NCBI GenBank assembly: GCA_025617745.1
Contig: CM046859.1
Coordinates: 29,377,371 to 29,441,370 of the forward strand
Direction of reading: 5' to 3'
DNA: 64,000 nt
DNA from: Heliocidaris erythrogramma
Lineage: Eukaryota; Echinodermata; Echinoidea; Camarodonta; Echinometridae
Position 1 is the stretch's first letter. Each line of letters starts with the position of its first letter. The notes beneath the pieces are model-generated. The model searched no databases, was not told the DNA's origin, and saw only the letters and a list, made by a program, of their open reading frames with translations. The translations under genes and the position numbers were made by a program. This document shows, in pieces, positions 3,895 to 63,225 of the stretch.

Positions 3895-14862
<10,968 letters not shown>

Positions 14863-22100: not shown

Positions 22101-25100
22101 AGCTAGAAAGCAAAAATCAACCTCAAAGAACTTTATCTGGCAATCTTTAGGTCAACAGTAAAAGAGTATGAAGGAAATAAAAGATAACATGAAAATGCTC
22201 GCGCGGAACCGAACTCTCAAGTTTGGTTGGTTCCGCGCAAGCCCATATCTTGGCGAGCAAGTACAGGTTTGTCTAGTAGTCTACTCACCAGTCGCTTTTA
22301 AATTTTATATTTTTTGTATGCACAATGTGAGGCAGGGCGGCCTTTATAGGCATGTAGCCATGCTTATTTACATTTTCTAAGTTTTCCTCTCTGGTAATGT
22401 CTGTAGCCTACTGATCTCATGTCACAAGCATCTATCTACCAGACTGGAGCAACAAGCTTTGCTGGACCCTTTACAAGGTACATTCCTGACTCCTTGTAGC
22501 TATTTCTACTTAATATATAAACATGACTGAATTTACCCTTCCTTCATATTTCATTGTTCATCGAAGAACAAAGTGTATTTGTTAGATGCACTTCCATATC
22601 CTGTTTAAAATTGGGATATGTATCTTTTGCAAATTAAATTATTTCATATCAAATCAATTTTACTGTTGTTTAAACTATTTTGTTAAGACATTCTAAATTT
22701 ATATCTCAGAATATACAGTACATTCTGCTATATCTATCTTATTTGGTTGATTTCTTGGCCAAACCATCCTGTCTTTTATTTCTTTCTGCTGTTAGATCTG
22801 TATTTGGTGCCAGTATGTCCCATGCATCTAGTCACTCCAACACAGAATCATTCACAGACGAGATAGCAGAGCCTACGTCTATGAAGGACATGCTCAGTGG
22901 GTTAGAAGGTAAAATAATATTATTGTGGCCGTAAAGAATCTTGTGACAGATTTAGATTGATTCTTTGATCAGTTAAGGGAAGTAGAAGTTCGGAAGAAAT
23001 ATCATTTCATCTAACCCTACTAGGCATATGATGTCCCACCAAATATTACCCATAATTCTTCATGTCCTTTTTTGGGGTAACGTTTAAACTAACCAAACTT
23101 TGAGTCGGTGCTGTGGCTCCAAGCAGTGCTCAAATTATTATTAATGAGGTCAAAAGAGCACAGTTTATCTTAAAAATGTAATGTTACTAATCATAGAATT
23201 GCCCATAACAAGTGACATAAATTTCCTTAACAGCACAGATAAGTTTTCCAAATATGCCCCCCCCCCAAAAAAAAAACAACAAAAAAACCCGTAAAACCTC
23301 AAGATTAGCTTCATACTGCATGTATGGCACTGAAAAGGTTATAACATCTTTGTCCACCTCATACACCAGATATCCAGACGAGAAGAGAGGAGACAATGGA
23401 GGATCTAACAGAAGACGACCTTGAGAAACTCATCCCCATCCACCTGACGGAGACAGAGACCATCTGGCTCCTAGACATCAATGGCGTCAGTCTGTCAACG
23501 GATGCAGAGGATGCAGCGGAAACCAAAGCCAGGAATGAAAAATACAAAGAGGTAAAGTGCGAACTGTGAGGAGAGAATGATTTATTAGAGAGAGATGTGA
23601 ATAGTCGAAGCAACTGATTCTTGCCCTTATTTTTTTAAAATGCTAATATTATTAATTGTATCCCCCGGCAGTATGCCGGAGGATACTTTGGATTCAGCAG
23701 CGTTTCGCCGCCGCCGCCGCCGCCGCGTCACATTCTTGTGTGCGCTCTAGCGGTCACATTTCTCGACGAATTTTTTTCAGACTTCCTGTGGACGTGTATC
23801 TTGGTAAAATCTGGACCCCTATAGTTTCTGGTGATGCTGCCCCCAGTGTTCCGTCTTTTATAGGGTAAAAGGCCATATTTTTGGGGATAGTGTGTGTGCG
23901 CTCTAGCGGTCACATTTCTCAACGGATTTTGTTCAAATTTTGTATGAAGGTGTCTCTTGGTAAAATCTGGAACCCTATAGATTTTCGTGATGCTGCCCCC
24001 AGTGTTCCGTCTTTTATAGGGTCAAAGGTCATATTTTGATAGATGTCTTGTGTGTACTCTTGTGTGCGCTCTGGCGGTCACATTTCTCAACGGATTTCGT
24101 TCAAATTTTGCATGAAGGTGTCTCTTGGTGTAATTTAAAAACCTATGGTGTTTGGTGATGCTGCCACCAGTGTTCCGTCTTTTATAGGGTCAAAGGTCAT
24201 ACTTCAGGGCATGGCGTGATTGCACTCTGCAGGCCACATTTCTCAACGGATTTTGTTCAAATTTTGTATGGAGATGTATCTTGGTATAATGTACACATGT
24301 TTAATTTTTGGTGATGCTGCCCTCATTGTTCCGTCCTTTATAGGGTCAAAGGTCATACTTCAAGGGATGGCATGAGTTCACTCTGCAGGCCACATTTCTT
24401 GATGGATTTCTTTCAAATTTTGTATGGAGATGTATCTTGGTATAATCTACACATCTTTACTGTTTGGTGGTGCTGCCCTCATTGTTCCGTCCTTTATAGG
24501 GTCAAAGGTCATACTTCAAGGGATGGCATGAGTTCACTCTGCAGGCCACATTTCTTGATGGATTTCTTTCAAATTTTGTATGGAGATGTATCTTGGTATA
24601 ATCTACACATCTTTACTGTTTGGTGGTGCTGCCCTCATTGTTCCGTCCTTTATAGGGTCAAAGCTCATTTGTCCATTTTGTGCACTCTTACTTCTGCATT
24701 TCTTGACGGATTTCATTCAAATTTTGTATGGAGATGTATCTTGGTATAATCTACACATATTTAATTTTTGGTGATGCTGCCCTCATTGTTCCGTCCTTTA
24801 TAGGGTCAAAGGTCATTTTTCCATTTCTTGCACTCTTACTTCTGCATTTCTTGACGGATTTCGTTCAAATTTCGCATGAAGGTGTTTCTTGGTGTAATCT
24901 AAAAACCTATAGTTTTTGGTGATACTGCCACCAGTGTTCCGTCTTTTATAGGGTCAAAGGTCATACTTCAGGGAATGGCGTGAGTGCACTCTGCAGGCCA
25001 CATTTCTTGATGGATTTCTTTCAAATTCTGTATGGAGATGTATCTTGGTATAATCTACACATCTTTCTGTTTGGTGATGCTGCCCTCATTGTTCCGTCCT

Positions 25101-28100
25101 TTATAGGGTCAAAGCTCATTTGTCCCTTTTGTGCACTCTTACTTCTGCATTTCTTGACGGATTTCATTCAAATTTTGTATGGAGATGTATCTTGGTATAA
25201 TCTACACATATTTAATTTTGGGTGATGCTGCCCTCATTGTTACGTCCTTTATAGGGTCAAAGGTCATTTTTCCATTTCTTGCACTCTTACTTCTGCATTT
25301 CTTGACGGATTTCGTTCAAATTTTGCATGAAGGTGTCTCTTGGTGTAATCTAAAAACCTATAGATTTTGGTGATGCTGCCACCAGTGTTCCGTCTTTTAT
25401 AGGGTCAAAGGTCATACTTCAGGGCATGGTGTGAGTGCACTCTGCAGGCCACATTTCTTGATGGATTTCTTTCAAATTTTGTATGGAGATGTGTCTTAGT
25501 GAAACCTACACATCTAATTTCTACACCATCCTTTTGTTTGAGGGAGGGGATGGGGGAGGGTCTTTGTCCTTCCTTCAAATCGCTGCCAGTGCCGGGGGAT
25601 ACATTTAGCATTGCGCGGCCCCAGCAATGCACATTTCTAGTTATAATAAGCTTAATAAATCATTGGATGTTTTGGGGCGAGAAAACAAAAGAACCTCACT
25701 GCTTACCAACTTGGGAAAGAAAAGAAAGTACAAAATAATAATGAGCTACATCACATTTAATTCGTGCAGGCAGTGACGGATCTTTCTTTTGAAACCCACC
25801 TGGCATACCTTATGTGCACGATAAAAAAAATTACCCCCTTAATTGGGTACTTTTCCGGCTCTGTTCCCCTTCTTTTATAAAATCCTGGATCCGCCCCTGA
25901 GTGCAGGAATAAGTATGTTTTAATAGATCTTTTGAAGGTGGCAGGACAAGTTAATTGTATAATGCAAGGAGTTGAGGCTTCTCATGTGAACATATAGTGA
26001 AGTGTGCTGATATAAAAATGATGGTTTGGCTTTTCCTTGAATATGACAGCATCTCACACCCATTCATAGTTTTTTATGGGAGACAATAGCACCCAAATAG
26101 CTGCCTATGTTTATTGAGGAAAAATAACTCGAACTTTAAAAAATAAGAAGAAATAGAGTCATCATGGAAAGAGAAATCTCACTGTCTGGACCTTTCTTGG
26201 TAATTGTAATGCAAACAAGATGATGCATTTCCATTGAAGTAACATGTACATGAGCTTCCAGTATATAAAAAATTAACCTAGATGCTGGGTTAGTACTGTT
26301 ACACACTATGTTCCATTATATGACTGGGGTAATTAGGAAACAAAAACTGAAGTATATACCAGTTGAATATTAACTAAACAAATACGTGTATGCACATAAT
26401 TTCTTTTCTATTTATAGCTATGCAAAAGTCGTGATGGCAATGACAGATATGCTGAGAGAGGCATGCAGACGTTCAATGACCTGCCTAAAAACAAGGAAAT
26501 CCAGACATCTAGAGTCAACTTTGTTGTAAGTCAACCTACTAAATTATTAAGTCTACATTGCTGATTATTGGAAATAATTTAAATTTTCATGTAAAAAGAA
26601 TTTCCAATGGGTTTCATCCTAATCAATTAAGTCTAAATGGCCTATTGTTGGAAATAAGCGAGATTTTCATGTAAAAAGCATTTGCAATGGGTTTCATCTT
26701 TGGTGTAGTTTCCATAGGGTTGATGATAGCATACTTCTTGGTTTAAGATTAGCAAACAGGGAGCTATCTTAGGGACTAAGTCATTTAGGATGGATGATGA
26801 CTTGAATGATTCAAATTCGGAGTCTGCATATCTAAGACAATGCAATGTTATAACTTCTGAGCCATTTTGTGTAACTTAGGACAATATTGCTGTATAGCTC
26901 GTAAACTACTTTTATAATTTTGCGGTATATAAATGTAATTGATTGTGAGTGAATATGAAATTGGCCAAAGACAGAAATGATCATGAAGCAAATTCACTCA
27001 ATTTCTGGTATTTTAGTTGGGGGGGGGGGGGGGATCAAAGCATTTTCTAGACACCTGTGGAGCATTTCGTCAAGTGTCTTGTCAGTGATTTTTACCAACA
27101 AATTAGCTTTCAGCCAATCAGATGCGAGGATTTCAGTAGCTTATAACAGTTGTCGGTGAAAATCACGGAAGAAACGCTTGATGAAATGCTGCCCGGATCT
27201 TATTCATCTTGTATAGATCTTATGTCTATATTACAGCTTTTATCATGATGATAAAGTACTGATAATCTGTGTATATTCAATAGTGTTTTTTCTTGCATAA
27301 AACAAAAAATACTAAATATTAACAAATGCATGGCATATTTTTTCTGCATATATTCACAGGACCAAGAGACCACAGTAACGAATTGGGATATGTATGACAC
27401 ATATCAAGATCAGGAAAAGAAACTCAACTGTAAGTAATAGTTCTGCGGTATGAATGGAATTTCTATGATTAGTGTCAAACTGAAAAAAAACAAACACAAA
27501 AGAAATTAGTTCATATGATTTTTTGTTTCGGAATAAAACAAGCCATGTTATCGATAGTGTTTCCATAAGATGTAAATGAATGGTTCTTTTTCATTCATAA
27601 AGGTGAACTACTATGTAGCAGGTTTTGCTTGAGTTCTTGGGATATACACTATTTTTATTGATATTCTCTGCTTACATGTTTACCAGGTGGTCAAAGTTTC
27701 ATGTAGGCAACAGAATACTCAGTGACCTCCTAGGCAGTGCCCAAATGATAATCATAAAAATAATATTGGATATTTATATAGCGCTCATATACACCATGCA
27801 ATGTGCTCAATGTGCTCTAATATTACCCCAGCTGCCGATTTGGGTGCGCTAACAGCTTTCAAGGCATTCCTTCCTGCCGGTACCCATTTAACACCTGGGT
27901 TGAGAGTGGCAAGTGTAGATTAATGTCTTGCAAAAGGACAGTAGTGCCACGCCGGGATTCGAACCCAGGACCTTCCCATCTTCAGTCAAACGTATAAACC
28001 ACTCGACTACGACACCTCTACAAATCATGTTGTGCACCCCTTCAATCTATATTTGTATACATTTAGTAAAACCCGAGTATAAAGACTCAATGAAATAAGA

Positions 28101-31100
28101 AACGGCATCTTTATCGGCAGTGATCTTTGTATTCAGAAGTAACAAGGAGAAGCACTGCTCAGGGGGGAAATGTGGGCCTTATAGTCAGATGATCTTTTAT
28201 ACACGGGTGGTTGCTAAACAGGTTAGACTGCATTTGATCTTTAATTTGGGATGTGCAGACTTTCATAAGCAAGTGGCCTTTCTATTGAGGCAATTTTGTT
28301 AAAGATCACATTGCAAGAAAATTCCATCAAAATAAATATTGTCTTAATACTTATTATTGCATAGATGGCATAAATTATACAAGGTTATCCAAATTCAACG
28401 CTTGGAAACATTTGAATTAATGATTATTATCAATTATAAAACAGTAAAATACAGCCCCCGATATAGCAGCTGAAGAGCTCCTTGAACGCTGCTGAGATGT
28501 GTGACGACACACGAAGGACCAGTCCTGTCTAAGCAGACGATGTCCCATAACATCTTACACATTTTTCAGTGCCTGTTTTGTCATCTCCTCTTCACTTATT
28601 TCTCTTACTTGACTAGCGTCAGTCTTAATGTTAGTCTGTTTCCTCACTCTTAAATTTGTGTATGGTATTATTTTGATGAAAAATGCAGCGTTAAAAAAAT
28701 AAAGGAATCTGTCACTTGTAAACAAAATAAGACGCCATTGTATTTTCAGCTGCTTGCACCGGGGCATGTTCGGCGTTTCAAGAGGGAACGAATACAATCT
28801 GTGATATTATTCGGAGGGCTTTTCAATTTGAAAATGGGGTTTATTTCATTGATCATTGACCCTTCTCCTGTGTATTTACAATCAAACGGTTTTAGTTATC
28901 AGAATCAGTTTCACTTTCCCTTTTAGAATGGTGTGAAATAAGGTCATGTTAAATATACCAAACTCTTTATAATTTGATAAATAATTGCATTGCAATTACG
29001 TTCATTCATTATAGGACGTCGTCTGCTTAAGCAGGATCGATCCCTAGTGTGACGACATCAAAACATCGCTATATTTCTGGCGAATCCTCGGATATTCCAG
29101 ATGCTTAGAAGAGCTTTTATTGTATCCCCCGGCAGTATGCCGGAGGATACTTTGGATTCAGCAGCGTTTCGCCGCCGCCGCCGCGTCACATTCTTGTGTG
29201 CGCTCTAGCGGTCACATTTCTTGACGAATTTCTTTCAGACTTCCTGTGGACGTGTATCTTGGTAAAATCTGGACCCCTATAGTTTCTGGTGATGCTGCCC
29301 CCAGTGTTCCGTCTTTTATAGGGTAAAAGGCCATATTTTTTGGGATAGTTTGTGTGCGCTCTAGCGGTCACATTTCTCAACGGATTTTGTTCAAATTTTG
29401 TATGAAGGTGTCTCTTGGTAAAATCTGGAACCCTATAGATTTTGGTGATGCTGCCCCCAGTGTTCCGTCTTTTATAGGGTCAAAGGTCATATTTTGATAG
29501 ATGTCTTGTGTGTACTCTTGTGTGCGCTCTGGCGGTCACATTTCTCAACGGATTTCGTTCAAATTTTGCATGAAGGTGTCTCTTGGTGTAATTTAAAAAC
29601 CTATAGTGTTTGGTGATGCTGCCACCAGTGTTCCGTCATTTATAGGGTCAAAGGTCATACTTCAGGGCATGGCGTGAGTGCACTCTGCAGGCCACATTTC
29701 TCAACGGATTTTGTTCAAATTTTGTATGGAGATGTATCTTGGTATAATCTACACATGTTTAATTTTGGGTGATGCTGCCCTCATTGTTCCGTCCTTTATA
29801 GGGTCAAAGGTCATTTTTCCATTTCTTGCACTCTTACTTCTGCATTTCTCGACGGATTTCGTTCAAATTTTGTATGGAGATGTATCTTGGTATAATCTAC
29901 ACGTATTTAATTTTTGGTGATGCTGCCCTCATTGTTCCGTCCTTTATATAGGGTCAAAGGTCATTTTTCCATTTCTTGACGGATTTCGTTCAAATTTTGC
30001 ATGAAGGTGTCTCTTGGTGTAATCTAAAAACCTATAGTTTTTGGTGATGCTGCCACCAGTGTTCAGTCTTTTATAGGGTCAAAGGTCATACTTCAGGGCA
30101 TGGCGTGAGTGCACTCTGCAGGCCACATTTCTTGACGGATTTCATTCAAATTTTGTATGGAGATGTATCTTGGTATAATCTACACATTTAATTTTTGGTG
30201 ATGCTGCCCTCATTGTTCCGTCCTTTATAGGGTCAAAGGTCATTTTTCCATTTCTTGCACTCTTACTTCTGCATTTCTTGACGGATTTCGTTCAAATTTT
30301 GCATGAAGGTGTCTCTTGGTGTAATCTAAAAACCTATAGTTTTTGGTGATGCTGCCACCAGTGTTCCGTCTTTTATAGGGTCAAAGGTCATACTTCAGGG
30401 CATGGCGTGAGTGCACTCTGCAGGCCACATTTCTTGATGGATTTCTTTCAAATTTTGTATGGAGATGTATCTTGGTATATCTCTCAACACATTTCTTTCA
30501 AATTTTATATGAAGATGTGTCTTAGTGAAACCTACACATCTAATTTCTACACCATCCTTTTGTTTGAGGGAGGGGATGGGGGAGGGTCTTTGTCCCTCCT
30601 TCAAATTGCTGCCAGTGCCGGGGGATACATTTAGCATTGCGCAGCCCCAGCAATGCACATTTCGTGTGTTTGGAGCCAGAAGGGCGTTAACTCATATACT
30701 TTAACACAGAGTTAACGCCCTTCTGGATCTCAACACACGATTTCTAGTTTATGTTGTTTTTATAATCATCAGATACGCAGTTGACATAAAACTTATACGA
30801 TTGCCATCTGTAAGCTTCCCAGTTTCTAGTGATACATTAATTGCCATATTTGTGATTTTCTTGCAATGTGATCTTTAATGACTCTTCTTTCATATTGCTT
30901 TCGGTGTCATCAGCTCAAGAGTTTGAATTCCGACAGGCAGATGAGGATAAGAAGAGTACGGTGGAGAGGCCCAAGAGTACCAAGTCTGGCGTCAGCTCAA
31001 TCACAGAAGAAGGATCAGGAAAGAAAGATAAAGAAGGGGGTATTTAAAATCTTTAGGATGCTTATACTGGCATATTAGTTTTATTGTTCGTTCACAATCT

Positions 31101-40100: not shown

Positions 40101-43100
40101 TTGTATGTCATACTTGTGCTTGTATTTTGATAGTCTGCATTGAAATTTCCAACTGCAAACATGCCAATTATGCAACAATGCAGCATCTCCTTTCTTGCTG
40201 CTTTGATTGTGCACTTGCATTATTTACTCTGGCAATTTTGTAGATTTACAAATATAATTTTTTCCCAAAATATTATCATATGCTGTGTTAAAGCTGCTTT
40301 AGTTAGCATATGACAGCGCTCAACATACAGTTTTATATAGGGGGCCATTTTAAGGAAGATCTAAAACTGAATATTTGAAATGATTGTTATAGTGTGGGGT
40401 ATCATCATGACTTGGGGGGGGGGGGGGGAGGGGGGGGGGGGGAGTCATCCTGTTTTTTTTTTCTGCCCCTTTTATGTTGAGCCCTGGCTGTAGTTACCTG
40501 ACTGTATTATGCTGAATGTATTATGTACATGTATGTTACTTGAAGCATATCTATATTTCAGACTGTATGATATTTGCAGAATGTGTATGAGTAACGAAGC
40601 ATAATTATATTCATTTATTTCACAAAAGTCGTTATTTATTTATGCATATTAATAGTCATACATCATTTTATGTTTAATTACTCCACACACGTACATTATT
40701 AACCTCATAGTATCACATTCACTTTATAGCATTTACAATCATATATATATATATGTGAAAGAAATGAGAGAATAATGGTTGCGTGGCTTAAATCAAAGTA
40801 CCCCAGAGCTGTATAATATACACACTGTATTCACCCCGGCAGTATGCCGGAGGATACTTTGGATTCAGCAGCGTTTCGCCGCCGCCGCCGCCGCCGCCGC
40901 GTCACATTCTTGTGTGCGCTCTAGCGGTCACATTTCTCGACGAATTTCTTTCAGACTTCCTATGGACGTGTATCTTGGTAAAATCTGGACCCCTATAGTT
41001 TCTGGTGATGCTGCCCCCAGTGTTCCGTCTTTTATAGGGTAAAAGGCCATATTTTTGGGGAAAGTTTGTGTGCGCTCTAGCGGTCACATTTCTCAACGGA
41101 TTTTGTTCAAATTTTGTATGAAGGTGTCTCTTGGTAAAATCTGGAACCCTATAGATTTTGGTGATGCTGCCCCCAGTGTTCCGTCTTTTATAGGGTCAAA
41201 GGTCATATTTTGATAGATGTCTTGTGTGTACTCTTGTGTGCGCTCTGGCGGTCACATTTCTCAACGGATTTTGCTCAAATTTTACATGAAGGTGTCTCTT
41301 GGTGTAATTTAAAAACCTATAGTGTTTGGTGATGCTGCCACCAGTGTCCCGTCTTTTATAGGGTCAAAGGTCATACTTCAGGACATGTCGTGAGTGCACT
41401 CTGCAGGCCACATTTCTCAATGGATTTTGTTCAAATTTTGTATGGAGATGTATCTTGGTATAATCTACACATGTTTAATTTTTCGTGATGCTGCCCTCAT
41501 TGTTCCGTCCTTTATAGGGTCAAAGGTCATTTTTCCATTTCTTGCACTCTTACTTCTGCATTTCTGACGGATTTCGTTCAAATTTTGCATGAAGGTGTCC
41601 CTTGGTGTAATCTAAAAACCTGTAGTTTTTGGTGATGCTGCCACCAGTGTCCCGTCTTTTATAGGGTCAAAGGTCATACTTCAAGGGATGGCGTGAGTTC
41701 ACTCTGCAGGCCACATTTCTTGATGGATTTCTTTCAAATTTTGTATGGAGATGTATCTTGGTATAATCTACACATCTTTACTGTTTGGTGATGCTGCCCT
41801 CATTGTTCCGTCCTTTATAGGGTCAAAGCTCATTTGTCCCTTTTGTGCACTCTTACTTCTGCATTTCTTGACGGATTTCATTCAAATTTTGTATGGAGAT
41901 GTATCTTGGTATAATCTACACATATTTAATTTTTGGTGATGCTGCCCTCATTGTTCCGTCCTTTATAGGGTCAAAGGTCATTTTTCCATTTCTTGCACTC
42001 TTACTTCTGCATTTCTTGACGGATTGCGTTCAAATTTTGCATGAAGGTGTCCCTTGGTGTAATCTAAAAACCTGTAGTTTTTGGTGATGCTGCCACCAGT
42101 GTCCCGTCTTTTATAGGGTCAAAGGTCATACTTCAAGGGATGGCGTGAGTTCACTCTGCAGGCCACATTTCTTGATGGATTTCTTTCAAATTTTGTATGG
42201 AGATGTATCTTGGTATAATCTACACATCTTTACTGTTTGGTGATGCTGCCCTCATTGTTCCCTCCTTTATAGGGTCAAAGCTCATTTGTCCCTTTTGTGC
42301 ACTCTTACTTCTGCATTTCTTGACGGATTTCATTCAAATTTTGTATGTAGGTCCATTATAGATTACACCTCTACAGTTTTTGGTGATGCTGCCTCTAGTG
42401 TTCCGTCTTTCATAGGATCAAAGGTCATATTTTAGTGGATGTCTTATGTGCGCTCTGAGGTCATATTTCTTCCGAATTTTCTATAAAAATGCATTATACT
42501 CTAATCTACACAAATCGTTTTGGTAATGCTGCTCCTGGTGTTGACAATATTCCGGGCCACTGGCGGCAATTTCTACACCATCCTTTTGTTTGAGGGAGGG
42601 GATGGGGGAGGGTCTTTGTCCCTCCTTCAAATCGCTGCCAGCGCCGGGGGATACATTTCGCATTGCGCGGCACGAGGAATGCACATTTCTAGTTTTACAT
42701 GTTATTCATTGTATCCCCCGGCAGTATGCCGGAGGATACTTTGGATTCAGCAGCGTTTCGCCGCCGCCGCCGCCGCGTCACATTCTTGTGTGCGCTCTAG
42801 CGGTCACATTTCTCGACGAATTTCTTTCAGACTTCCTATGGACGTGTATCTTGGTAAAATCTGGACCCCTATAGTTTCTGGTGATGCTGCCCCCAGTGTT
42901 CCGTCTTTTGTAGGGTAAAAGGCCATATTTTTGGGGAAAGTTTGTGTGCGCTCTAGCGGTCACATTTCTCAACGGATTTTGTTCAAATTTTGTATGAAGG
43001 TGTCTCTTGGTAAAATCTGGAACCCTATAGATTTTGGTGATGCTGCCCCAGTGTTCCGTCTTTTATAGGGTCAAAGGTCATATTTTGATAGATGTCTTGT

Positions 43101-46100
43101 GTGTACTCTTGTGTGCGCTCTGGCGGTCACATTTCTCAACGGATTTTGTTCAAATTTTACATGAAGGTGTCTCTTGGTGTAATTTAAAAACCTATAGTGT
43201 TTGGTGATGCTGCCACCAGTGTCCCGTCTTTTATAGGGTCAAAGGTCATACTTCAGGACATGTCGTGAGTGCACTCTGCAGGCCACATTTCTCAATGGAT
43301 TTTGTTCAAATTTTGTATGGAGATGTATCTTGGTATAATCTACACATGTTTAATTTTTCGTGATGCTGCCCTCATTGTTCCGTCCTTTATAGGGTCAAAG
43401 GTCATTTTTCCATTTCTTGCACTCTTACTTCTGCATTTCTTGACGGATTTCGTTCAAATTTTGCATGAAGATGTCCCTTGGTGTAATCTAAAAACCTGTA
43501 CTTTTTGGTGATGCTGCCACCAGTGTCCCGTCTTTTATAGGGTCAAAGGTCATACTTCAAGGGATGGCGTGAGTTCACTCTGCAGGCCACATTTCTTGAT
43601 GGATTTCTTTCAAATTTTGTATGGAGATGTATCTTGGTAGAATCTACACATCTTTACTGTTTGGTGATGCTGCCCTCATTGTTCCGTCCTTTATAGGGTC
43701 AAAGCTCATTTGTCCCTTTTGTGCACTCTTACTTCTGCATTTCTTGACGGATTTCATTCAAATTTTGTATGGAGATGTATCTTGGTATAATCTACACATA
43801 TTTAATTTTTGGTGATGCTGCCCTCATTGTTCCGTCCTTTATAGGGTCAAAGGTCATTTTTCCATTTCTTGCACTCTTACTTCTGCATTTCTTGACGGAT
43901 TTCGTTCAAATTTTGCATGAAGGTGTCCCTTGGTGTAATCTAAAAACCTGTAGTTTTTGGTGATGCTGCCACCAGTGTCCCGTCTTTTATAGGGTCAAAG
44001 GTCATACTTCAAGGGATGGCGTGAGTTCACTCTGCAGGCCACATTTCTTGATGGATTTCTTTCAAATTTTGTATGGAGATGTATCTTGGTAGAATCTACA
44101 CATCTTTACTGTTTGGTGATGCTGCCCTCATTGTTCCGTCCTTTATAGGGTCAAAGCTCATTTGTCCCTTTTGTGCCTTCTTACTTCTGCATTTCTTGAC
44201 GGATTTCATTCAAATTTTGTATGTAGGTCCAGAGAGATTACACCTCTACAGTTTTTGGTGATGCTGCCTCTAGTGTTCCGTCTTTCATAGGATCAAAGGT
44301 CATATTTTAGTGGATGTCTTATGTGCGCTCTGAGGTCATATTTCTTCCAAATTTTCTATAAAAATGCATTATACTCTAATCTACACAAATCGTTTTGGTA
44401 ATGCTGCTTCTGGTGTTGACAATATTCCGGGCCACTGGCGGCAATTTCTACACCATCCTTTTGTTTGAGGGAGGGGATGGGGGAGGGTCTTTGTCCCTCC
44501 TTCAAATTGCTGCCAGCGCCGGGGGATACATTTCGCATTGCGCGGCACGAGGAATGCACATTTCTAGTTTTCAATGAAAATGAAATTCATTTCATTCAAC
44601 TTTTATGCATTTATCATATAATTCTATCACCTGCATTTAAACCATATCATGCCTTTGTTATTTGTGTGTTCTAAACTTATCCATATGTTACTTTTCATTT
44701 GTGTATTGCTCCACAAACTTGCACTTTTTTGGCACGTTTTAAACCATGCTTAGGATGATGGGCCGGTAAAGTATTGCTTCACTGTCAGTTATTAGTATTA
44801 CATGTATATTAGTTAACATTTAGTTGAAGTATTAGACCAAATGTTTAGAGTTGACATATAAATAGAAGTAAATGTTTAGTTTAGTATTTATCAATAATGT
44901 GTTCAAATTTTCATTTACATAATTATCATCTAGCATTCTACAAACCCCCTTTTCCCTATAATTTTAGCTGAAGCTTAATTTGATCAATGCAAATTCTGCA
45001 ATTCTCTTTTTAAAAAGTATTAAGAATATGTTGCCTACATGTATAACGTATTACAAATGTACAATTATTTCTATCACAATTAAGAAATGTATATTTGTAG
45101 GAAAAAAAAAGTGTTAAAATGGATAAAATGAATACTTCTTGTCAGCGTTAATTTTTTATTAAACATTCTGTGCATTGTCAGAAAATATTCCATCCATTTT
45201 ATAAAGAACCCATACTTATCATTAAGAATTTGTCATGTTAAATCTAAATTTGTGATGTATGGTTGTATAGTAGGGGTTACATATAACCTCAAACTAATAA
45301 CTAACAACTCTGTTATGGGAAATCTATGTGACTCATGTGGTTTAATGAATGTTTCTACCATTTTGACCTTGTTATTCTAAGACTAATAAGCATGACACAA
45401 TTAGGTACATATGCTGTTTATTAGAGTCAGGGCCTTTCAGGTTCTTGTTCCTTAAATTCTGTTTGTAAAATACATGTACATGTATACCTTTTATTATTTG
45501 GCTGAATTTTCTCTTCTTTCTATATTAAATGTAATTCATGCTGTATCAAGATGCATTATACACATGAACTTAATACTGACATACATGTATTTACAGAGAT
45601 GCCAACCGTTCCGGAATATGCATGAGGTCAAAATTAAAATGTGAATTACGCAACGGTTGAATGCTTGTGAGAGAAAACATGACAACAATAACCATGCTCT
45701 CCGCTATTCACTTGTCATGAAAGCCTTGAAATCCACCTCATACATATTCCGGAACAGTTGGCAACTCTGTATTTACCGGGTCCGCTAGCTATTCATAGAA
45801 AACCGCTATTCATTTAACACGCGTTATGAATAGCGGTCCTAATGAACTGTAATGAATAGTGGTCCTTATGAATAGCGAGGTAATTTGTCTATGGTTTGCT
45901 CGCTATTCATACAAAACCGCTATTCATTTAGTCCCGCGTTATGGATAGTGGTCCTTATGAATAAGTGGTCTTTATGAATAGCGGTTCTTTATGACTAGCG
46001 AGGTTACCCCGTATTTACATACATACCAGTACATACATGTATTGTACTCTGTTTCTATTGGTATTCAATGGTTCAGTAGTTGGATTCTACAATGCACATG

Positions 46101-49100
46101 TACTACCAATTACTAAAACATAATAACTTTTCAATTTTATCTAACATCGATTTTAAATGGGTGTGGGCCTTGGTATTCTTGGGCTTAATCTTCAATATCT
46201 TTAGATTCTAAGGTTCTTTTTTTGTTTCATATTCCTCTACACTTTGAGAGAATTTGGCCAATTAGGAGAGTTTTTTACATGGTAATTCCTTATCAAGAAC
46301 ATCTTTCAGTTTCTCACACTGTATAAATGGGCGACACGCGTAATTATCCATTGTTAGTGGGGGATGATCTATTCATCATCCCCCCCACTAACAATAGAAA
46401 GTGTGTTCGTATCTATGCCACTGACTGTATATAATCTGAAATTCACACTACATGATTTTAATGCATCTTCTCAGTGCCCCATTATACTGTACATTTTTTT
46501 TTGTCGGCAATAAGCAAAGATTAATTAAATATTAGGTATTATTACCTATACAGGGCATTTTGGCTGCAAAAAAGCGCTGTATTTTGCACGCTACTCCGAA
46601 TCCATAAACGGAGCGAGCAATATTTGCCATATCCAACCCTTTCTTGTCAGTGCGCTTTGTGTTCAAAGGCTTAAACCATGGATACGCGTGGTGACAATTA
46701 ACGTCACAATTGCTTGGCCCAGATTACATACCTGTATGAATAACCTGAAATCAGAGGGACTGTGACAGGCAAACAGACGTGTTTGTAATTACTACAAAAT
46801 AGGCATACACATGATATAGGTAATAATAATAATATTGACTGGCTCTACTTTCGGGGAATATTGAAAATATTGCCATTAAAAGAACCATATTGCCCTCGTC
46901 TTCGACTCGCGGCAATATTCTGATATCCCCCTCAAGGCCAGTCAATATTATATAATTGTTGGCCATTGCAGACAAAATGACAGCATGAAGGAGATAAAGA
47001 GTTGTGTTTATTTAAGACACAAATAAATACTAGTAATGCAGCCAAAAATTGAGGCGTCAATGTGAGAAATCATGATACAAGTTGCTGATAAAGAATTATT
47101 TGATGAGACCACAAGATAAAGGTGTTTTATTCTGAAAATTATTATTGTATTGGATTCCTTTGAACAATTTGCATGTTATGTTAGATATCTGAATGTAGGG
47201 CCTGTTGAATGAAAATTATACTTAAAGTCAAGTTACAATTTTTGTCATTCATGTACACCAATTTGGAGCAAGTTTGGTTGAAACTTTGGAAATTTGGAAA
47301 TCTGTACTTTCAATACTTGTGCTTTTCAGGAAACCCATAGTGAAATGATTCTAAGTCATTGTCTTCATCTTTCCTTCCTATGCATTAGAAAGCTGTCATG
47401 GACGTGTGTTGGTCTCCTACATCACCGACTGTTTTTGGATGTGTCAACGAGGGTGCCGTGGAAATCTGGGATTTGAGTGTGAACACGTAAGTTTTTGTTT
47501 TACTATCACAGTTGGTAGATGTATATGATGTGATTCAGCATACATTAAAGCCAAAAACTTGCGTGTATGAAACTTTTTTTCTTCCAGATTCGTGAAAGTT
47601 TAATGCCGAAAAAATAAATGAATTACTTCGAACGCAACACTGTCTTTGTCTAAATGGCTGCTGTTTACAAGCAACATATTCATTTCATGCAATTGTTTTG
47701 TTTGCAGTATTTTTTTAGCTGGACCTAAAGAATCATTGTTCCTGTAGGGTTTTATAATGTGGCATGATTTTGAACGTACGGTGTATGGAAATATGTACAG
47801 TATCCTCTATACCGGTATTAAAAAATCTGTTTTACTATTAATTACAGACATGAGTGTACATTGAAACGATGGACTAATCAGAACTAAGTGTAATGTATTA
47901 GCTCATAACGATTCTTGTATACTTATTATAGAATCTGTTTCTTCATATTTTGTAGGTTGGACCCTATCATTGTGAACGTTCCTGCACCTGGTGTGAAGCT
48001 ATCTTGTCTCATCTTTGCTCTCAACTCTAATGTGAGTATGATATTATTGTATCCCCCGGCAGTATGCCGGAGGATACTTTGGATTCAGCAGCGTTTCGCC
48101 GCCGCCGCCGCGTCACATTCTTGTGTGCGCTCTAGCGGTCACATTTCTCGACGAATTTCTTTCAGACTACCTGTGGACGTGTATCTTGGTAAAATCTGGA
48201 CCCCTATAGTTTCTGGTGATGCTGCCCCCAGTGTTCCGTCTTTTATAGGGTAAAAGGCCATATTTTGGGGGATAGTTTGTGTGCGCTGTAGCGGTCACAT
48301 TTCTCAACGGATTTTGTTCAAATTTTGTATGAAGGTGTCTCTTGGTAAAATCTGGAACCCTATAGATTTTGGTGATGCTGCCCCCAGTGTTCCGTCTTTT
48401 ATAGGGTCAAAGGTCATATTTTGATAGATGTCTTGTGTGTACTCTTGTGTGCGCTCTTGTGTGCGCTCTTGTGTGCGCTCTGGCGGTCACATTTCTCAAC
48501 GGATTTCGTTCAAATTTTGCATGAAGGTGTCTCTTGGTGTAATTTAAAAACCTATAGTGTTTGGTGATGCTGCCACCAATGTTCCGTCTTTTATAGGGTC
48601 AAAGGTCATACTTCAGGGCATGGCGTGAGTGCAATCTGCAGGCCACATTTCTCAACGGATTTTGTTCAAATTTTGTATGGAGATGTATCTTGGTATAATC
48701 TGCACATGTTTAATTTTTGGTGATGCTGCCCTCATTGTTCCGTCCTTTATAGGGTCAAAGGTCATTTTTCCATTTCTTGCACTCTTACTTCTGCATTTCT
48801 CGACGGATTTCGTTCAAATTTTGCATGAAGGTGTCCCTTGGTGTAATCTAAAAACCTGTACTTTTTGGTGATGCTGCCACCAGTGTCCTGTCTTTTATAG
48901 GGTCAAAGGTCATACTTCAAGGGATGGCGTGAGTTCACTCTGCAGGCCACATTTCTTGATGGATTTCTTTCAAATTTTGTATGGAGATGTATCTTGGTAT
49001 AATCTACACATCTTTACTGTTTGGTGATGCTGCCCTCATTGTTCCGTCCTTTATAGGGTCAAAGCTCATTTGTCCCTTTTGTGCACTCTTACTTCTGCAT

Positions 49101-51921
49101 TTCTTGACGGATTTCATTCAAATTTTGTATGGAGATGTATCTTGGTATAATCTACATGTACACATATTTAATTTTTGGTGATGCTGCCCTCATTGTTCCG
49201 TCCTTTATAGGGTCAAAGGTCATTTTTCCATTTCTTGCACTCTTACTTCTGCATTTCTTGACGGATTTCGTTCAAATTTTGCATGAAGGTGTCTCTTGGT
49301 GTAATCTAAAAACCTATAGTTTTTGGTGATGCTGCCACCAGTGTTCCCTTTTTGTATAGGGTCAAAGGTCATACTTCAGGGCATGGCGTGAGTGCACTCT
49401 GCAGGCCACATTTCTTGATGGATTTCTTTCAAATTTTGTATGGAGATGTATCTTGGTATAATCTACACATCTTTACTGTTTGGTGATGCTGCCCTCATTG
49501 TTCCGTCCTTTATAGGGTCAAAGCTCATTTGTCCCTTTTGTGCACTCTTACTTCTGCATTTCTTGACGGATTTCATTCAAATTTTGTATGGAGATGTATC
49601 TTGGTATAATCTACATGTACACATATTTAATTTTTGGTGATGCTGCCCTCATTGTTCCGTCCTTTATAGGGTCAAAGGTCATTTTTCCATTTCTTGCACT
49701 CTTACTTCTGCATTTCTTGACGGATTTCGTTCAAATTTTGCATGAAGGTGTCTCTTGGTGTAATCTAAAAACCTATAGTTTTTGGTGATGCTGCCACCAG
49801 TGTTCCGTCTTTTATAGGGTCAAAGGTCATACTTCAGGGCATGGCGTGAGTGCACTCTGCAGGCCACATTTCTTGATGGATTTCTTTCAAATTTTGTATG
49901 GAGATGTATCTTGGTATATCTCTCAACACATTTCTTTCAAATATATGAAGATGTGTCTTAGTGAAACCTACACATCTAAATTGTTTGCTGATGCTACCCC
50001 CACTGTACCACTTTCTATACAGTCAAATGTCATATTCAGGTTGTTGTTAGGGTCAAATGTCATATTTTCGTTGCATGCATTCTGGAGGACACATTTGTTA
50101 ACTCATTTCTTTCAGATTTTGTATGTAGGTCCATTATAGATTACACCTCTACAGTTTTTGGTGATGCTGCCTCTAGTGTTCCGTCTTTCATAGGATCAAA
50201 GGTCATATTTTAGTGGATGGCTTATGTGCGCTCTGAGGTCATATTTCTTCCGAATTTTCTATAAAAATGCATTATACTCTAATCTGCACAAATCGTTTTG
50301 GTAATGCTGCTCCTAGTGTTGACAATATTCCGGGCCACTGGCGGCAATTTCTAGATCTGTACCATCCTTTTGTTTGAGGGAGGGGATGGGGGAGGGTCTT
50401 TGTCCCTCCTTCAAATCGGTGCCAGTGCCGGGGGATACATTTCGCATTGCGCGGCACCAGCAATGCACATTTCTAGTTTGTTTTGATTTTAGCACTTTGG
50501 CTACATGTGGATAAAGGCAAAGTGTAAAAGAAACGTAGAGGCTGTAATATATACAACCCAACCATAACAAGATTTTCTGTCATCTTGATAGTATAATTAG
50601 ATTCACCAGTGATGCTTCTCAATAGACTGCTTCTGTAATGTATACAAATTTATGCACATATATTCTCTGAGCACCTAGTGACGAGCTATTCCATGAACCT
50701 GCTTTTTATAAATGAGCCTCAATGCTTGGAATCCAGTTTGCATACATTATTTGTTGCTATGTCCAGCAAGCTTTCAAAGGTATGCATAAAACTTGCATAC
50801 ATTACCGAAGCAGTCTATTATGAGAGCTATCGATTTTGCTTTCTGTGTTAAAAAAAAAAAAAAAAATCGGGGGGGGGGGGGGGGGGGAAGCTCTCTATTT
50901 GCACGTGAAATTCTTTTAAAGTTTTTATCTTGATAAAAAAAATTACCGGTAGGCAAAAAAAAAGAGAAAAATCACATCTTGATATTTTGTCCCATTAGTA
51001 TAGAGTCCATTGCAATTGAATATTGAAAAAATTGAAGAAAATATTATTCTGTCTTTTCTTCTCTTTCCCTCCTTCAGTGTATTCTTGTTGGTGACAGCGA
51101 GGGTCAGGTGTCTGTCTATCAGCTCAGATGTATGCCACCAGTGGAAGACAACCAGGTAAGCTACTCTGACTAGGCTCTGTTTTATAAAACATTTTTATCA
51201 GTAACACATGTCTAAATACAAATGATGAATGTACTCAGCCAGTTAAATGCAATTATTTCAGTAGCTTATAACAGTTATTGTAGCTTGTTATGGATAACAT
51301 ATTTTATGAAAAAGGGTCCAGATATGATGTGCGATACGTCGTTGGCGGGGTTTCTTATGAACCAGTGGGTATAAAAGGAAATTCTCTTCAAAGGGAAACA
51401 ATGAACATTTGAAGCACAAGGAACAGGCAACAGCCATGTTTGCTTTTGTTTTGTTTTTGTTTGTTTGTATGTGAGACTAGCGAAAATCAATTGCAAATCC
51501 CCCTTTTGCAATCGATTGCAAATATGATACATGTATTTTAAATGGAACTTGCAATCAATTGCAAGACTTGCGACTGATTTGGGGGATTTGCAATTGATTG
51601 CAACTTTCTTGCAACACCCCCTAGGTTTCCAGTTTGACTTTCCTAGATAACTTCATCATGAATCAGAAATTCCACTAAGAACAACAGTTTTTACACTAAT
51701 GATGAGTTTACAATTTGCAAGGCTATACAGTCATGTACCTTCAACCTTTTAATTCTCTAATTGTACATAACTATTTCTATATTTGTTTTTGTGGAATCTT
51801 TATCAGAATGTTTACAATGTCATTGTACGTTTACACATCTCAACTTGTTTTTTTTTTCTTTCAGTCTGAAAAACTGAAGCAGCTGCTGGAGCAGACGATT
51901 GCAGGACAGCTCAGGACCTGA
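19168..51921 (+). CDS. DNAI4: Axonemal dynein intermediate chain 4 (WDR78), 22 coding exons
   Basis: Coding exons: 19168-19383, 19839-19955, 22407-22477, 22796-22908, 23370-23551, 26418-26525, 27360-27429, 30914-31039, 31428-31558, 32175-32277, 33686-33891, 34255-34341, 34767-34844, 35423-35496, 35839-35980, 36486-36646, 37791-37878, 39256-39384, 47389-47486, 47956-48031, 51078-51155, 51865-51921. Phases join without a break into 836 aa; human DNAI4 is about 848. The N-terminal half holds the intermediate-chain motif VLDEEGQDVTP and an acidic linker. The C-terminal half (from about residue 440) holds seven WD40 blades, e.g. VSCMAWNKGNQ, VTAMDFSGSNPNLLAVG, PVWQLQWV, IYKIRWSPFLNDIFLSCSAD, VMDVCWSP, ILVGDSEGQVSVYQL. 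The family acts in motile cilia and is needed for inner-arm dynein f/I1 assembly in vertebrates. Exon 9 carries a 15-bp in-frame repeat (SMVNA). The first in-frame ATG of the exon is taken as the start. Confidence 0.95.
20731..21117. mobile_element. TTAA-type MITE (GAGTTCTGG family), copy 2
   Basis: Starts TTAAAGAGAAGGCCGAGTTC and ends near CCAGAACTCAATC. It aligns along its length with 32652-33019. The right terminus lacks a clear TTAA and abuts the element at 21122. DNAI4 intron 2. Confidence 0.7.
21122..21425. mobile_element. Inverted-repeat MITE with a perfect 18-bp hairpin in its left arm
   Basis: The left terminus GGCCCGTATACATGTACTCG pairs imperfectly with the right terminus CGAGAATACTGGCC, followed by CCTAAGTTAAGCC/GGCTTAAGTTAGG. 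At 21145-21181 the left arm is itself a near-perfect palindrome (AGTGGCCTAAGTTAAGCC and its complement around one T). DNAI4 intron 2. Confidence 0.68.
22093..22300. repeat. Dispersed repeat with GC-rich hairpin, copy 1
   Basis: Shares about 200 bp with 52029-52235, including ACAGCTAGAAAG, TCAACCTCAAAGAACTTTAT and AGTAGTCTACTCAC. It contains a hairpin at 22197-22242 with arms around GCTCGCGCGGAACCGAACT. DNAI4 intron 2. Confidence 0.75.
23658..25640 (+). mobile_element. Helentron/HINE-like non-autonomous element, copy 1
   Basis: The 5' end is a hairpin at 23658-23686 (GTATCCCCCGGC and GCCGGAGGATAC arms), then a (CCG)6 tract. The body is about 11 tandem units of about 148-155 bp. Near the 3' end GCCGGGGGATAC (25591-25602) repeats the 5' motif inverted. 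A hairpin GCATTGC..GCAATGC (25608-25630) lies 6 nt before the terminal CTAG. The element lies between two T residues. These are marks of Helitron-group elements, specifically the Helentron/HINE type. No Rep or helicase frame is present. DNAI4 intron 5. Confidence 0.8.
25771..25899. mobile_element. hAT-like MITE with GGCGGATCC-type ends
   Basis: Starts CAGTGACGGATC and ends GGATCCGCCCCTG. The flanks CGTGCAGG and AGTGCAGG match at 7 of 8 positions, fitting an 8-bp hAT target duplication. A related element is at 63226-63393. Confidence 0.65.
26549..26700. repeat. Local tandem duplication of about 90 bp after DNAI4 exon 6
   Basis: Two adjacent copies share ATTAAGTCTA, TTGGAAATAA, ATTTTCATGTAAAAAG and CAATGGGTTTCATC. 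The copies are diverged, so the duplication is not recent. Confidence 0.75.
27058..27193. mobile_element. GGGGAGCG-type palindromic MITE, copy 1
   Basis: Ends AGCATTTCGTCAAGTGTCTT and CGCTTGATGAAATGCT form the inverted repeat. The core (CAGCCAATCAGATGCGAGGA) is the same as in the GGGCCC family. A run of about 15 G lies just upstream. DNAI4 intron 6. Confidence 0.8.
27755..28018 (-). mobile_element. tRNA-derived SINE
   Basis: On the minus strand the head carries an A box (TAGTCGAGTGGTTTATACG, 28009-27991) and a B box (GGGTTCGAATCCC, near 27966-27953). A conserved body follows, then a tail GCGCTATATAAATATCCA ending in AT-rich repeats. The spacing and boxes fit a Pol III tRNA-related promoter, but the body is too long and unstructured for a tRNA gene. 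DNAI4 intron 7, antisense. Confidence 0.82.
28450..29082. mobile_element. Inverted-repeat DNA element of about 630 bp
   Basis: Left-arm blocks (CGATATAGC, GATGTGTGACGACA, CTAAGCAGACGATGTCCCAT) recur inverted at the right (ATAGGACGTCGTCTGCTTAA, GTGTGACGACATC, CGCTATAT). The arms are about 90 bp and the middle is AT-rich and non-coding. DNAI4 intron 7, just upstream of Helentron-like copy 2. Confidence 0.68.
29122..30747 (+). mobile_element. Helentron/HINE-like element, copy 2 (interrupted at its 3' end)
   Basis: Same structure as copy 1: 5' hairpin, (CCG)4, about eight tandem units, GCCGGGGGATAC motif and 3' hairpin. The final CTAG (30744-30747) is separated from the hairpin by a 77-bp palindromic MITE at 30663-30739. 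The 5' flank ends in T and the 3' flank begins with T. DNAI4 intron 7. Confidence 0.8.
30663..30739. mobile_element. 77-bp palindromic MITE nested in a Helentron-like element
   Basis: Ends CGTGTGTT and AACACACG. The inner arms AGAAGGGCGTTAACTC and GAGTTAACGCCCTTCT pair around a short AT loop. ATTT (30659-30662 and 30740-30743) flanks both sides as a 4-bp target duplication. Removing one ATTT and the element restores the family 3' end exactly as in copies 1 and 3-5. Confidence 0.85.
31862..31927 (+). repeat. SINE/LINE tail-like fragment with (ATT)n
   Basis: GTGCCTTGAGCATCCCTTGG followed by a (TTA)n tract resembles the 3' tail shared by many invertebrate SINEs. No head is visible. DNAI4 intron 9. 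Confidence 0.4.
32455..32594. mobile_element. GGGGAGCG-type palindromic MITE, copy 2
   Basis: 140 bp, ends AGGGGAGCGTTTCATCAAGC and GCTTGATGAAACGCTCCCCT, almost perfect inverted repeats of about 45 bp. The core CAGCCAATCAGATGCAAGGA is shared with the GGGCCC family. DNAI4 intron 10. Confidence 0.9.
32652..33019. mobile_element. TTAA-flanked MITE (GAGTTCTGG family), copy 3
   Basis: TTAA at 32652-32655 and 33016-33019. The left end AAGAGAAGGTTGAGTTCTGG and a right end with CCAGAAC match copies 1 and 2. DNAI4 intron 10. Confidence 0.75.
33180..33685 (+). repeat. Tandem array of decayed DNAI4 exon 11 starts
   Basis: Three blocks of 185, 166 and 146 bp precede the real exon 11. Each contains an acceptor-like TAG followed by GATGTTGACAGAG or a close variant (AG at 33187-33188, 33372-33373 and 33538-33539). 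The real site is at 33684-33685 (GATGTGGACAAAGTGGA). Between them recur ACACC(A/G)ACACCT-like motifs. The second copy still reads DVDRVEPKGA before a stop, against DVDKVETEE in the exon. Confidence 0.7.
34165..34195. repeat. TACATG microsatellite
   Basis: Four to five TACATG units in DNAI4 intron 11; the motif TACATGTA is frequent across the window. Confidence 0.7.
38192..38642. mobile_element. Palindromic MITE-like element with GCATCGATGCT ends
   Basis: The ends ACGTAGAGCGATAGCATCGA and AGCATCGATGCTATGTACTA-CGT are inverted. Internally, GTTTCGAGACTA/TAGTTTCGAGACT and repeated GCAGCGAG and AGTCACGAG motifs occur on both arms. Non-coding; DNAI4 intron 17. Confidence 0.6.
39421..39703. mobile_element. 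MITE with terminal inverted repeats of about 75 bp
   Basis: The left arm AGTTTTCGGATGTGTCGACT, then CTAGATCCTCCCAGC, TGGACTGCTTTGTGTT, is mirrored by AACACAAAGCAGTCCA, GCTGGGAGGATCTAG, GACACATTCGAAAGCT. The centre of about 130 bp is unique. DNAI4 intron 18, directly after exon 18. Confidence 0.85.
40827..42692 (+). mobile_element. Helentron/HINE-like element, copy 3
   Basis: The 5' hairpin is slightly altered (GTATTCACCCCGGC). A (CCG)7 tract, about 10 units, two divergent terminal units, GCCGGGGGATAC and a 3' hairpin with CTAG follow. It shares private variants with copy 4 (TTGGGGAAAGTTTGTGTG; GGCACGAGGAATGC in the 3' hairpin). DNAI4 intron 18. Confidence 0.8.
42711..44567 (+). mobile_element. 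Helentron/HINE-like element, copy 4
   Basis: Begins 18 bp after copy 3 in the same orientation, with (CCG)5. The order of units and the 3' hairpin variant match copy 3 closely, so one is a duplicate of the other. Flanked by T at both ends. DNAI4 intron 18. Confidence 0.8.
45594..45769. mobile_element. MITE with CAGAGATGCCAAC ends and GTATTTAC target duplication
   Basis: Terminal inverted repeats CAGAGATGCCAACCGTTCCG and CGGAACAGTTGGCAACTCTG continue inward through GAATATG. TATTTA (up to GTATTTAC if the outer base is counted as target) is present on both sides. The end sequence and a target duplication of up to 8 bp fit a hAT-type MITE. DNAI4 intron 18. Confidence 0.82.
45776..46008. mobile_element. 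Inverted-repeat element built of CGCTATTCAT repeats
   Basis: About ten copies of CGCTATTCAT or ATGAATAGCG occur in alternating orientation. The ends CCGCTAGCTATTCAT and GACTAGCGAGGTTACCCC are roughly inverted. GTATTTAC flanks both sides and is shared with the preceding MITE. Strong self-folding is expected. Confidence 0.65.
46350..46394. repeat. Hairpin of about 20 bp
   Basis: ATTGTTAGTGGGGGATGAT pairs with ATCATCCCCCCCACTAACAA across a 5-nt loop. DNAI4 intron 18. Confidence 0.8.
46550..46960. repeat. Imperfect inverted-repeat region with AATATTGACTGG arms
   Basis: AATATTGACTGGC (about 46833) is mirrored by GCCAGTCAATATT (about 46938), and GGCAATATT and AATATTGCC recur between them. Probably a degraded MITE. 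Confidence 0.45.
48049..50476 (+). mobile_element. Helentron/HINE-like element, copy 5
   Basis: The longest copy, 2.4 kb: 5' hairpin, (CCG)4, about 12 units plus divergent terminal units near 49980-50250, GCCGGGGGATAC, and a 3' hairpin GCATTGC..GCAATGC before CTAG. It begins only 17 bp after the end of DNAI4 exon 20. A small CTTGTGTGCG triplication lies at 48443-48480. DNAI4 intron 20. Confidence 0.82.
50850..50887. repeat. Poly-A / poly-G tract
   Basis: About 16 A followed by TC and about 18 G in DNAI4 intron 20. Confidence 0.9.
51173..51319. mobile_element. Diverged GGGCCC-type MITE
   Basis: Starts GGCTCTGTTTTATAAAACAT and ends TTTTATGAAAAAGGGTCC, with the core TTTCAGTAGCTTATAACAGT. It is the most diverged copy of the family here. 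DNAI4 intron 21. Confidence 0.7.
51484..51602. mobile_element. Palindromic element of TTGCAATTGATTGC repeats
   Basis: AATCAATTGCAAATCCCCC on the left is mirrored by GGGGGATTTGCAATTGATTG on the right, with further GCAATCGATTGC and GCAATCAATTGC palindromes inside. DNAI4 intron 21. Confidence 0.78.
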
Positions 51922-62970: not shown

Positions 62971-63225
62971 CTTTCCTTCAACAAAACTGAGGTTAATAAA
63001 AATGTAACCACGAGATGGCGCTGTTCATAAAAGCTTGCTTGAAAAAGACAGCAGCATGCAACTAACTACATGTACATGTAGTTCAGACGCAATTTTTTCT
63101 TGCACCTTGTAAATTATTGGCACATACACCCTACCCTTAAGACATACACACTATATCTCATAAAGTTCTGCAAGAAGTTCTTGAAGGAAGCAGACTACTC
63201 CTGAGAGGAAGAAGAGATGAGCTGC

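Follow-up and report, generated by a model that had tools for sequence, protein, structure and literature searches.

Five very probable HINE elements of the Helentron/Helitron2 branch, with satellite-like bodies, within the DNAI4 gene of Heliocidaris erythrogramma

HINEs, non-autonomous elements of the Helentron/Helitron2 branch, have a characteristic plan. According to the description in PMC4067079, their subterminal repeats are palindromic and 12-15 bp long, the distance to the end is 38-60 bp for the 3' repeat and 8-35 bp for a palindrome, some copies contain tandem repeats and the target is T-rich. Families and subfamilies are delimited there by identical subterminal repeats of at least 11 bp. 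Helitron2, as presented in PMC3627910, has two hairpins and asymmetric inverted repeats, the 5' repeat being placed 0-2 bp from the end. For a Fusarium Helitron2-like element (FoHeli1), amplification of joined ends is described as suggesting circles (PMC5148889). Helraiser has served as an experimental model in which termination, read-through and the formation of circles can be followed. In the account of PMC4778049 its 3' hairpin serves as terminator, loss of the hairpin raises read-through, and no local hopping is reported.

We analysed a stretch of 64,000 nucleotides from the sea urchin Heliocidaris erythrogramma (hereafter the window), in which an earlier sequence-only reading had placed five co-oriented HINE-like elements inside one ciliary gene. 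All five were confirmed at the positions given in Table 1, and their summed length of 9,760 bp agrees with its figure of nearly 10 kb of intron. The host gene, DNAI4, is a cilium gene of animals. Its exon peptides all come from the + strand and, taken together as one query, reach E 8.3e-68 against human DNAI4; the stretch ending with the peptide at 23381 gives E 3.9e-6 by itself and the stretch holding the peptide at 51078 gives E 3.8e-4, and the first peptide (19839) is by itself a weak match that is not significant. The exon peptides at 23381 and 30910 enclose copies 1 and 2. Copies 3-5 are enclosed by the peptides at 36486 and 51078, an interval that may comprise one intron or several and in which about 110 human DNAI4 residues have no recovered counterpart. 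All copies are thus located in introns of DNAI4. Because DNAI4 is on the + strand, the five + strand copies are all in sense direction, which had also been claimed. We nevertheless rejected the orientation as a signal, since the two-sided P for five of five is 0.0625, not significant; this value counts copies 3 and 4 separately, and the two may be non-independent.

Table 1. Positions of the host gene, the element copies and their parts in the window
Feature	Position	Strand	Description
Host gene DNAI4	19839..51155	+	extent as recovered from exon peptides
HINE-like element copy 1	23658..25640	+	1,983 bp; 12 monomer matches; perfect 3' palindrome
HINE-like element copy 2	29122..30747	+	1,626 bp; 10 monomer matches; CTAG preceded by fold-back insert
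HINE-like element copy 3	40827..42692	+	1,866 bp; 11 monomer matches; mutated 5' repeat (GTATTCACCCCGGC); damaged 3' palindrome
HINE-like element copy 4	42711..44567	+	1,857 bp; 11 monomer matches; damaged 3' palindrome of copy 3
HINE-like element copy 5	48049..50476	+	2,428 bp; 16 monomer matches; near-identical 459-bp trimer duplicated
5' subterminal repeat and complement	23658..23686	+	hairpin GTATCCCCCGGC AGTAT GCCGGAGGATAC in copy 1; identical in copies 2, 4, 5
Central satellite-like array, copy 1	23757..25516	+	all monomers in same direction
3' subterminal inverted repeat GCCGGGGGATAC	25591..25602 (copy 1)	+	others: 30617, 42643, 44518, 50427
3' palindrome GCATTGC..GCAATGC	25608..25630 (copy 1)	+	6 nt upstream of CTAG
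Fold-back (MITE-like) insert	30663..30739	.	77 bp, within copy 2, bounded by ATTT direct repeats
Spacer between copies 3 and 4	42693..42710	.	18 bp, TTTTACATGTTATTCATT

The copies have a common terminal plan. On the 5' side, a 12-bp subterminal repeat forms a hairpin and is followed by a (CGC)5-8 microsatellite. On the 3' side, the inverted subterminal repeat is succeeded by a short palindrome and CTAG. The exact 12-mer GTATCCCCCGGC opens four of the five copies, and copy 3 (40827) starts with GTATTCACCCCGGC instead. Its counterpart GCCGGGGGATAC is present in all five and ends 38 nt before the element end in four of them, so that copy 3, by its 5' end, is the only exception to exact 12-bp repeats on both sides. 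The palindrome starts 33 nt from the element end in 4/5 copies. To call this terminal architecture complete, as the sequence-only reading did, is an overstatement: CTAG, the 3' repeat and a T on either side of the element are found in 5/5, but the 5' repeat of copy 3 is mutated, the palindrome of copies 3 and 4 is damaged and copy 2 carries an insert. For the same reason only a part of the claim of a palindrome 6 nt before CTAG can be retained. Copies 1 and 5 have it there in perfect form. In copies 3 and 4 it reads GCATTGC..GGAATGC, two C-to-G changes away from copy 5, and in copy 2 it is displaced by the insert.

The 5' hairpin is well beyond chance. Folded as DNA it reaches z -6.8 in copy 1 and -4.0 in copy 3, and its pattern has 4 matches compared with 0 in 100 shuffles. 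The 3' palindrome alone is energetically unexceptional in all five copies (z -0.70 to -0.06); this weakness, together with the damage in two of five, speaks against the HINE reading. When the first 15 bases were compared with the last 70, inverted matches of at least 12 bp appeared in copies 1, 4 and 5 (3/5), versus 1 of 14,322 random position pairs; copy 2 fails because of its insert and copy 3 because of its mutated start.

The insert of copy 2 separates a perfect palindrome from CTAG. It is a near-perfect fold-back (DNA fold z -11.1 for 30662-30740); an alternative reading gives it 76 bp and ATTTC repeats. By blastn it has no further copy in the window.

The five copies are closely related. 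Their left modules (first 520 bp) are 98.1-99.4% identical, and a right module, comprising the last 124-130 bp (205 bp in copy 2, insert included), is common to all of them. Outside the pair of copies 3 and 4, the remaining nine pairs show identities of 94.3-98.6%. Under the family/subfamily rule of PMC4067079, as described there, copies 1, 3, 4 and 5 agree in 54-59 of 60, copy 2 being omitted for its insert, and the 5' repeat of copy 3 departs from the rule; the right end of copy 2 can be aligned with the others despite the insert. Neither blastn (E 1e-3) nor the monomer profile (E 1) found further pieces of the family in the window.

Most of each copy consists of a tandem array of satellite-like monomers of about 150 bp. 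The monomer profile has 60 matches, 60/60 on the + strand and none outside the copies, and successive full monomer starts are spaced by 127 to 192 bp, mostly 148 or 156. Typing was based on the 51 matches of sufficient length, with nine partial ones excluded. The first two monomer types are identical in every array and the order is variable thereafter, copies 3 and 4 sharing an identical string of ten types. The two halves of the duplicated trimer in copy 5 (459 and 458 bp) are identical at 456 positions, and both contain the same 6-bp insert, which appears as a gap in alignments to the other copies. The variable order and the trimer duplication therefore indicate that arrays grow or shrink within single copies after the elements have separated. 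The last classified monomer type is common to copies 3, 4 and 5 and absent from copies 1 and 2, which points to two subgroups, 3/4/5 and 1/2.

No recognisable coding domain was found in the elements. The 10 + strand ORFs overlapping them gave no Pfam match above cut-off, and sub-threshold hits in two of the ten were taken as noise. Searches for known RNAs returned none in the window at gathering score, and in 42600-44700 the result was equally negative with E allowed up to 1. One motif of the monomers, AGGGTCAAAGGTCA, has 35 exact occurrences, every one of them on the + strand and within the elements (23658-50476). It resembles the DR1 nuclear-receptor site, given in PMC3252374 as AGGTCAxAGGTCA. 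About 0.0003 occurrences of its last 13 letters would be expected under a first-order model, the observed copies being homologous and hence not independent. The motif belongs to the better-conserved parts of the monomer, ranking 8th of 142 windows. Such a rank does not, therefore, argue for selection on it, and a regulatory meaning was rejected.

Insertion between T and T had been claimed as well, and a T is indeed present on both sides in 5/5 copies. Given the TT frequency of 0.118 in the gene, the chance of five such sites is about 2e-5. The surroundings are T-rich: within 4 nt of the ends 28 of 40 positions are T compared with a mean of 13.1, a count that none of 20,000 random sets attained, and within 10 nt it is 56 of 100 (P 5e-5). 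With the nearest two bases on each side excluded, because these possibly are element sequence, the excess of T is weaker (37/80, P 0.02), with P 0.003 for A+T. Target duplications longer than TT were absent from the five sites; at most TT (4/5) or T (copy 3) is repeated. Two points count against the HINE reading here: the conserved T or TT may be element sequence, and four of the five copies may be bounded by a 2-bp TT target duplication. The flanks are unrelated among copies, their longest common match being 12 bp (E 0.033; nine flank pieces).

Several other features were noted in the window. A 133-bp repeat is present just right of copy 5 (50642-50774) and, in inverted orientation and 77% identical, near the 5' part of the gene (20467-20599). 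At 26546-26698 an 80-bp unit is repeated head-to-tail (1.9 copies, 84% matches). Acidic exon-like ORFs at 6700-11796 (-) are reminiscent of the MIER family and lie head to head with DNAI4, as human MIER1 and DNAI4 do. Pfam and PDB searches lent no support to the MIER identity of these ORFs. An ORF at 62662-63024 (-) is weakly like NDUFB6 (E 4e-5, under the family cut-off). At 59340-61468 (-) there is a reverse-transcriptase ORF (RVT_1, E 1.5e-30) with an adjoining ORF without Pfam match, together probably a non-LTR retrotransposon.

No relative was obtained from the prokaryote, viral, phage and plasmid collections, where an animal element would hardly be expected. The 5' 22-mer matched no viral contig, the monomer 22-mer matched no prokaryote and no viral contig, and the first 643 bp of copy 1 matched no plasmid or phage. 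We did obtain matches of the 3' 16-mer to 7 viral contigs and of a degenerate 5' hairpin pattern to 30 prokaryote DNA stretches, and judged them all to be chance: the 3' palindrome pattern occurs in 0/37 loci, the viral loci lack a second copy of the 12-bp repeat and the prokaryote loci lack the 3' 16-mer. The 12-mer GTATCCCCCGGC was not found in the literature text searched, which says little, as such sequences often stand in figures or supplements.

We propose that the five copies very probably constitute one non-autonomous rolling-circle family of the Helentron/Helitron2 branch, that is, a HINE family with a satellite-like body. The family is new, its kind is already known. Inverted subterminal repeats, here of 12 bp and thus in the range of 11-15 bp, are located near both ends; the 3' repeat and the palindrome keep the HINE distances (38-60 and 8-35 bp) from the 3' end in 4/5 copies; and central tandem repeats and a microsatellite occur without coding domains in the 10 + strand ORFs. 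As in Helitron2, a hairpin-forming repeat stands at the 5' end and the 3' repeat just upstream of the 3' hairpin. The ends, the tandem repeats and the microsatellite match published anatomy, the T-rich flanks and the lack of duplications beyond TT are compatible with it, and together with the lack of a recognisable coding domain they support the HINE family put forward by the sequence-only reading. Its appeal to Helitron-group rules is valid for the Helentron/Helitron2 branch, and the 3' CTAG with its nearby palindrome is Helitron-like, but the canonical 5'-TC and the target between A and T are absent.

These absences weigh on the idea that the copies are canonical Helitron1 elements. CTAG fits the CTRR terminus and a palindrome is near it, yet the copies begin with GTATCC (4/5) or GTATTC instead of TC, are inserted between T and T in 5/5 instead of between A and T, and have a 5' hairpin and inverted subterminal repeats, which Helitron1 lacks in the descriptions of PMC4067079 and PMC3627910; we consider this assignment very improbable. 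A cut-and-paste MITE, derived from a TIR DNA transposon and filled with a minisatellite body, would account for 12-bp inverted repeats close to both ends, and the related bivalve element Pearl is described as having initially been named a MITE (PMC7492417, PMC5139131). The repeats are asymmetric, however, 0 nt from one end versus 38 nt from the other, the last bases are not the inverse of the first and the flanks repeat TT at most, all of which makes a MITE very improbable. That there are only plain satellite arrays at the five sites, without any mobile element, is hardly credible: the tandem array is indeed the bulk of each copy, but left and right modules with common ends lie outside the arrays in 5/5, the same first two monomer types open every array and the flanks are unrelated. 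On this evidence the preference for HINEs over simple satellite arrays, expressed in the sequence-only reading, was justified.

Because the plan fits HINEs, Cg_HINE and Helitron2, we infer that rolling-circle movement with the enzyme supplied elsewhere is the best reading; known families serve as the model for its enzyme, for a circular stage and for the direction in which replication would run. In such a scheme, Rep/helicase from an autonomous Helentron elsewhere in the genome would nick at the 5' hairpin end and one strand of the element would be peeled off. Termination would take place at the 3' end, marked by the inverted subterminal repeat, the palindrome and CTAG. The peeled strand would then circularise and insert between the Ts of a T-rich site without longer duplication. 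The central array would be inherited with the element, and later gains and losses of monomers and trimers would occur inside single copies. The present family, clean and well-bounded and with long satellite-like bodies, would be useful for tracing the spread of satellite repeats through genes.

Copies 3 and 4 deserve separate consideration. They are the closest pair (99.14% identity, 16 mismatches in 1,856 aligned), point in the same direction 18 bp apart and have the damaged palindrome in common. Their distance and their identity, the highest of all, suggest a local rolling-circle event, and a single event (circle or read-through) is attractive because Helraiser showed no local hopping. A possible, though rather unlikely, course is that both come from one rolling-circle episode: the donor palindrome would have been already damaged, replication would have continued past the weak terminator and two head-to-tail copies would have resulted, with donor DNA instead of target DNA as the spacer. 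If this were true, the pair would show, caught in nature, how a failing terminator yields tandem Helentrons. With its common damaged palindrome the pair could also be used to examine whether the terminator role described for Helraiser in PMC4778049 extends to a Helentron-type element of an animal. The high identity, the identical monomer order and the short distance would likewise follow from ordinary tandem duplication of the element and spacer by the host, an explanation that concerns this pair only. The spacer weakly resembles the 24 bases that follow copy 4 on the right (shuffle P 0.084); this resemblance falls far short of the 99% between the elements, and the 24 bases left of copy 3 show none (shuffle P 0.75), so that we regard host duplication, too, as doubtful. 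The two copies may also be separate insertions.

Among known systems, HINE-Mo of Metaseiulus is described in PMC4067079 with similar ends, namely subterminal repeats of 12-15 bp that are themselves palindromic, a 3' repeat about 38-60 bp and a palindrome about 8-35 bp from the 3' end, and a T-rich target. The Drosophila DINE-1 has a core sequence and HINE-Mo is without one in the same description; both are likened here to our elements by plan only. The position of the 3' repeat, 38 nt from the end, falls in the 38-60 range of the mite HINEs (PMC4067079), whereas about 20-30 bp is given for Helitron2 as first described (PMC3627910). With the canonical Helitron Helraiser the copies have in common a 3' hairpin near CTAG, and they differ from it in that a 5'-TC is described for Helraiser (PMC4778049) and Helitron1 is described as having no 5' hairpin (PMC3627910).

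The bivalve elements Pearl, CvA and DTC84 are modular as well and contain as many as six satellite-like units of about 160 bp in tandem, according to the descriptions from which we likened them, by plan only (PMC5139131, PMC7492417). The BIV160 primer has a few letters in common with our elements (GGGTCAAA), which does not amount to a test (PMC5139131). Cg_HINE of Crassostrea gigas, as portrayed in PMC7492417, offers many points of likeness: subterminal repeats normally of 11-12 bp whose complement lies at a distance of 1-12 bp, a microsatellite on the left, monomers of fixed direction and predominantly 140-180 bp, a right subterminal repeat with palindrome, and a preference for TT without duplication. 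Some Cg_HINE copies are located within non-coding regions of genes, and genome-wide they occur in both orientations (PMC7492417). The copies described here differ in their 10-16 monomer matches, compared with an average of about five or fewer in Cg_HINE, the longest of which has 29, and in their recurring trimer order and CGC microsatellite, a comparison made by description and not by sequence (PMC7492417).
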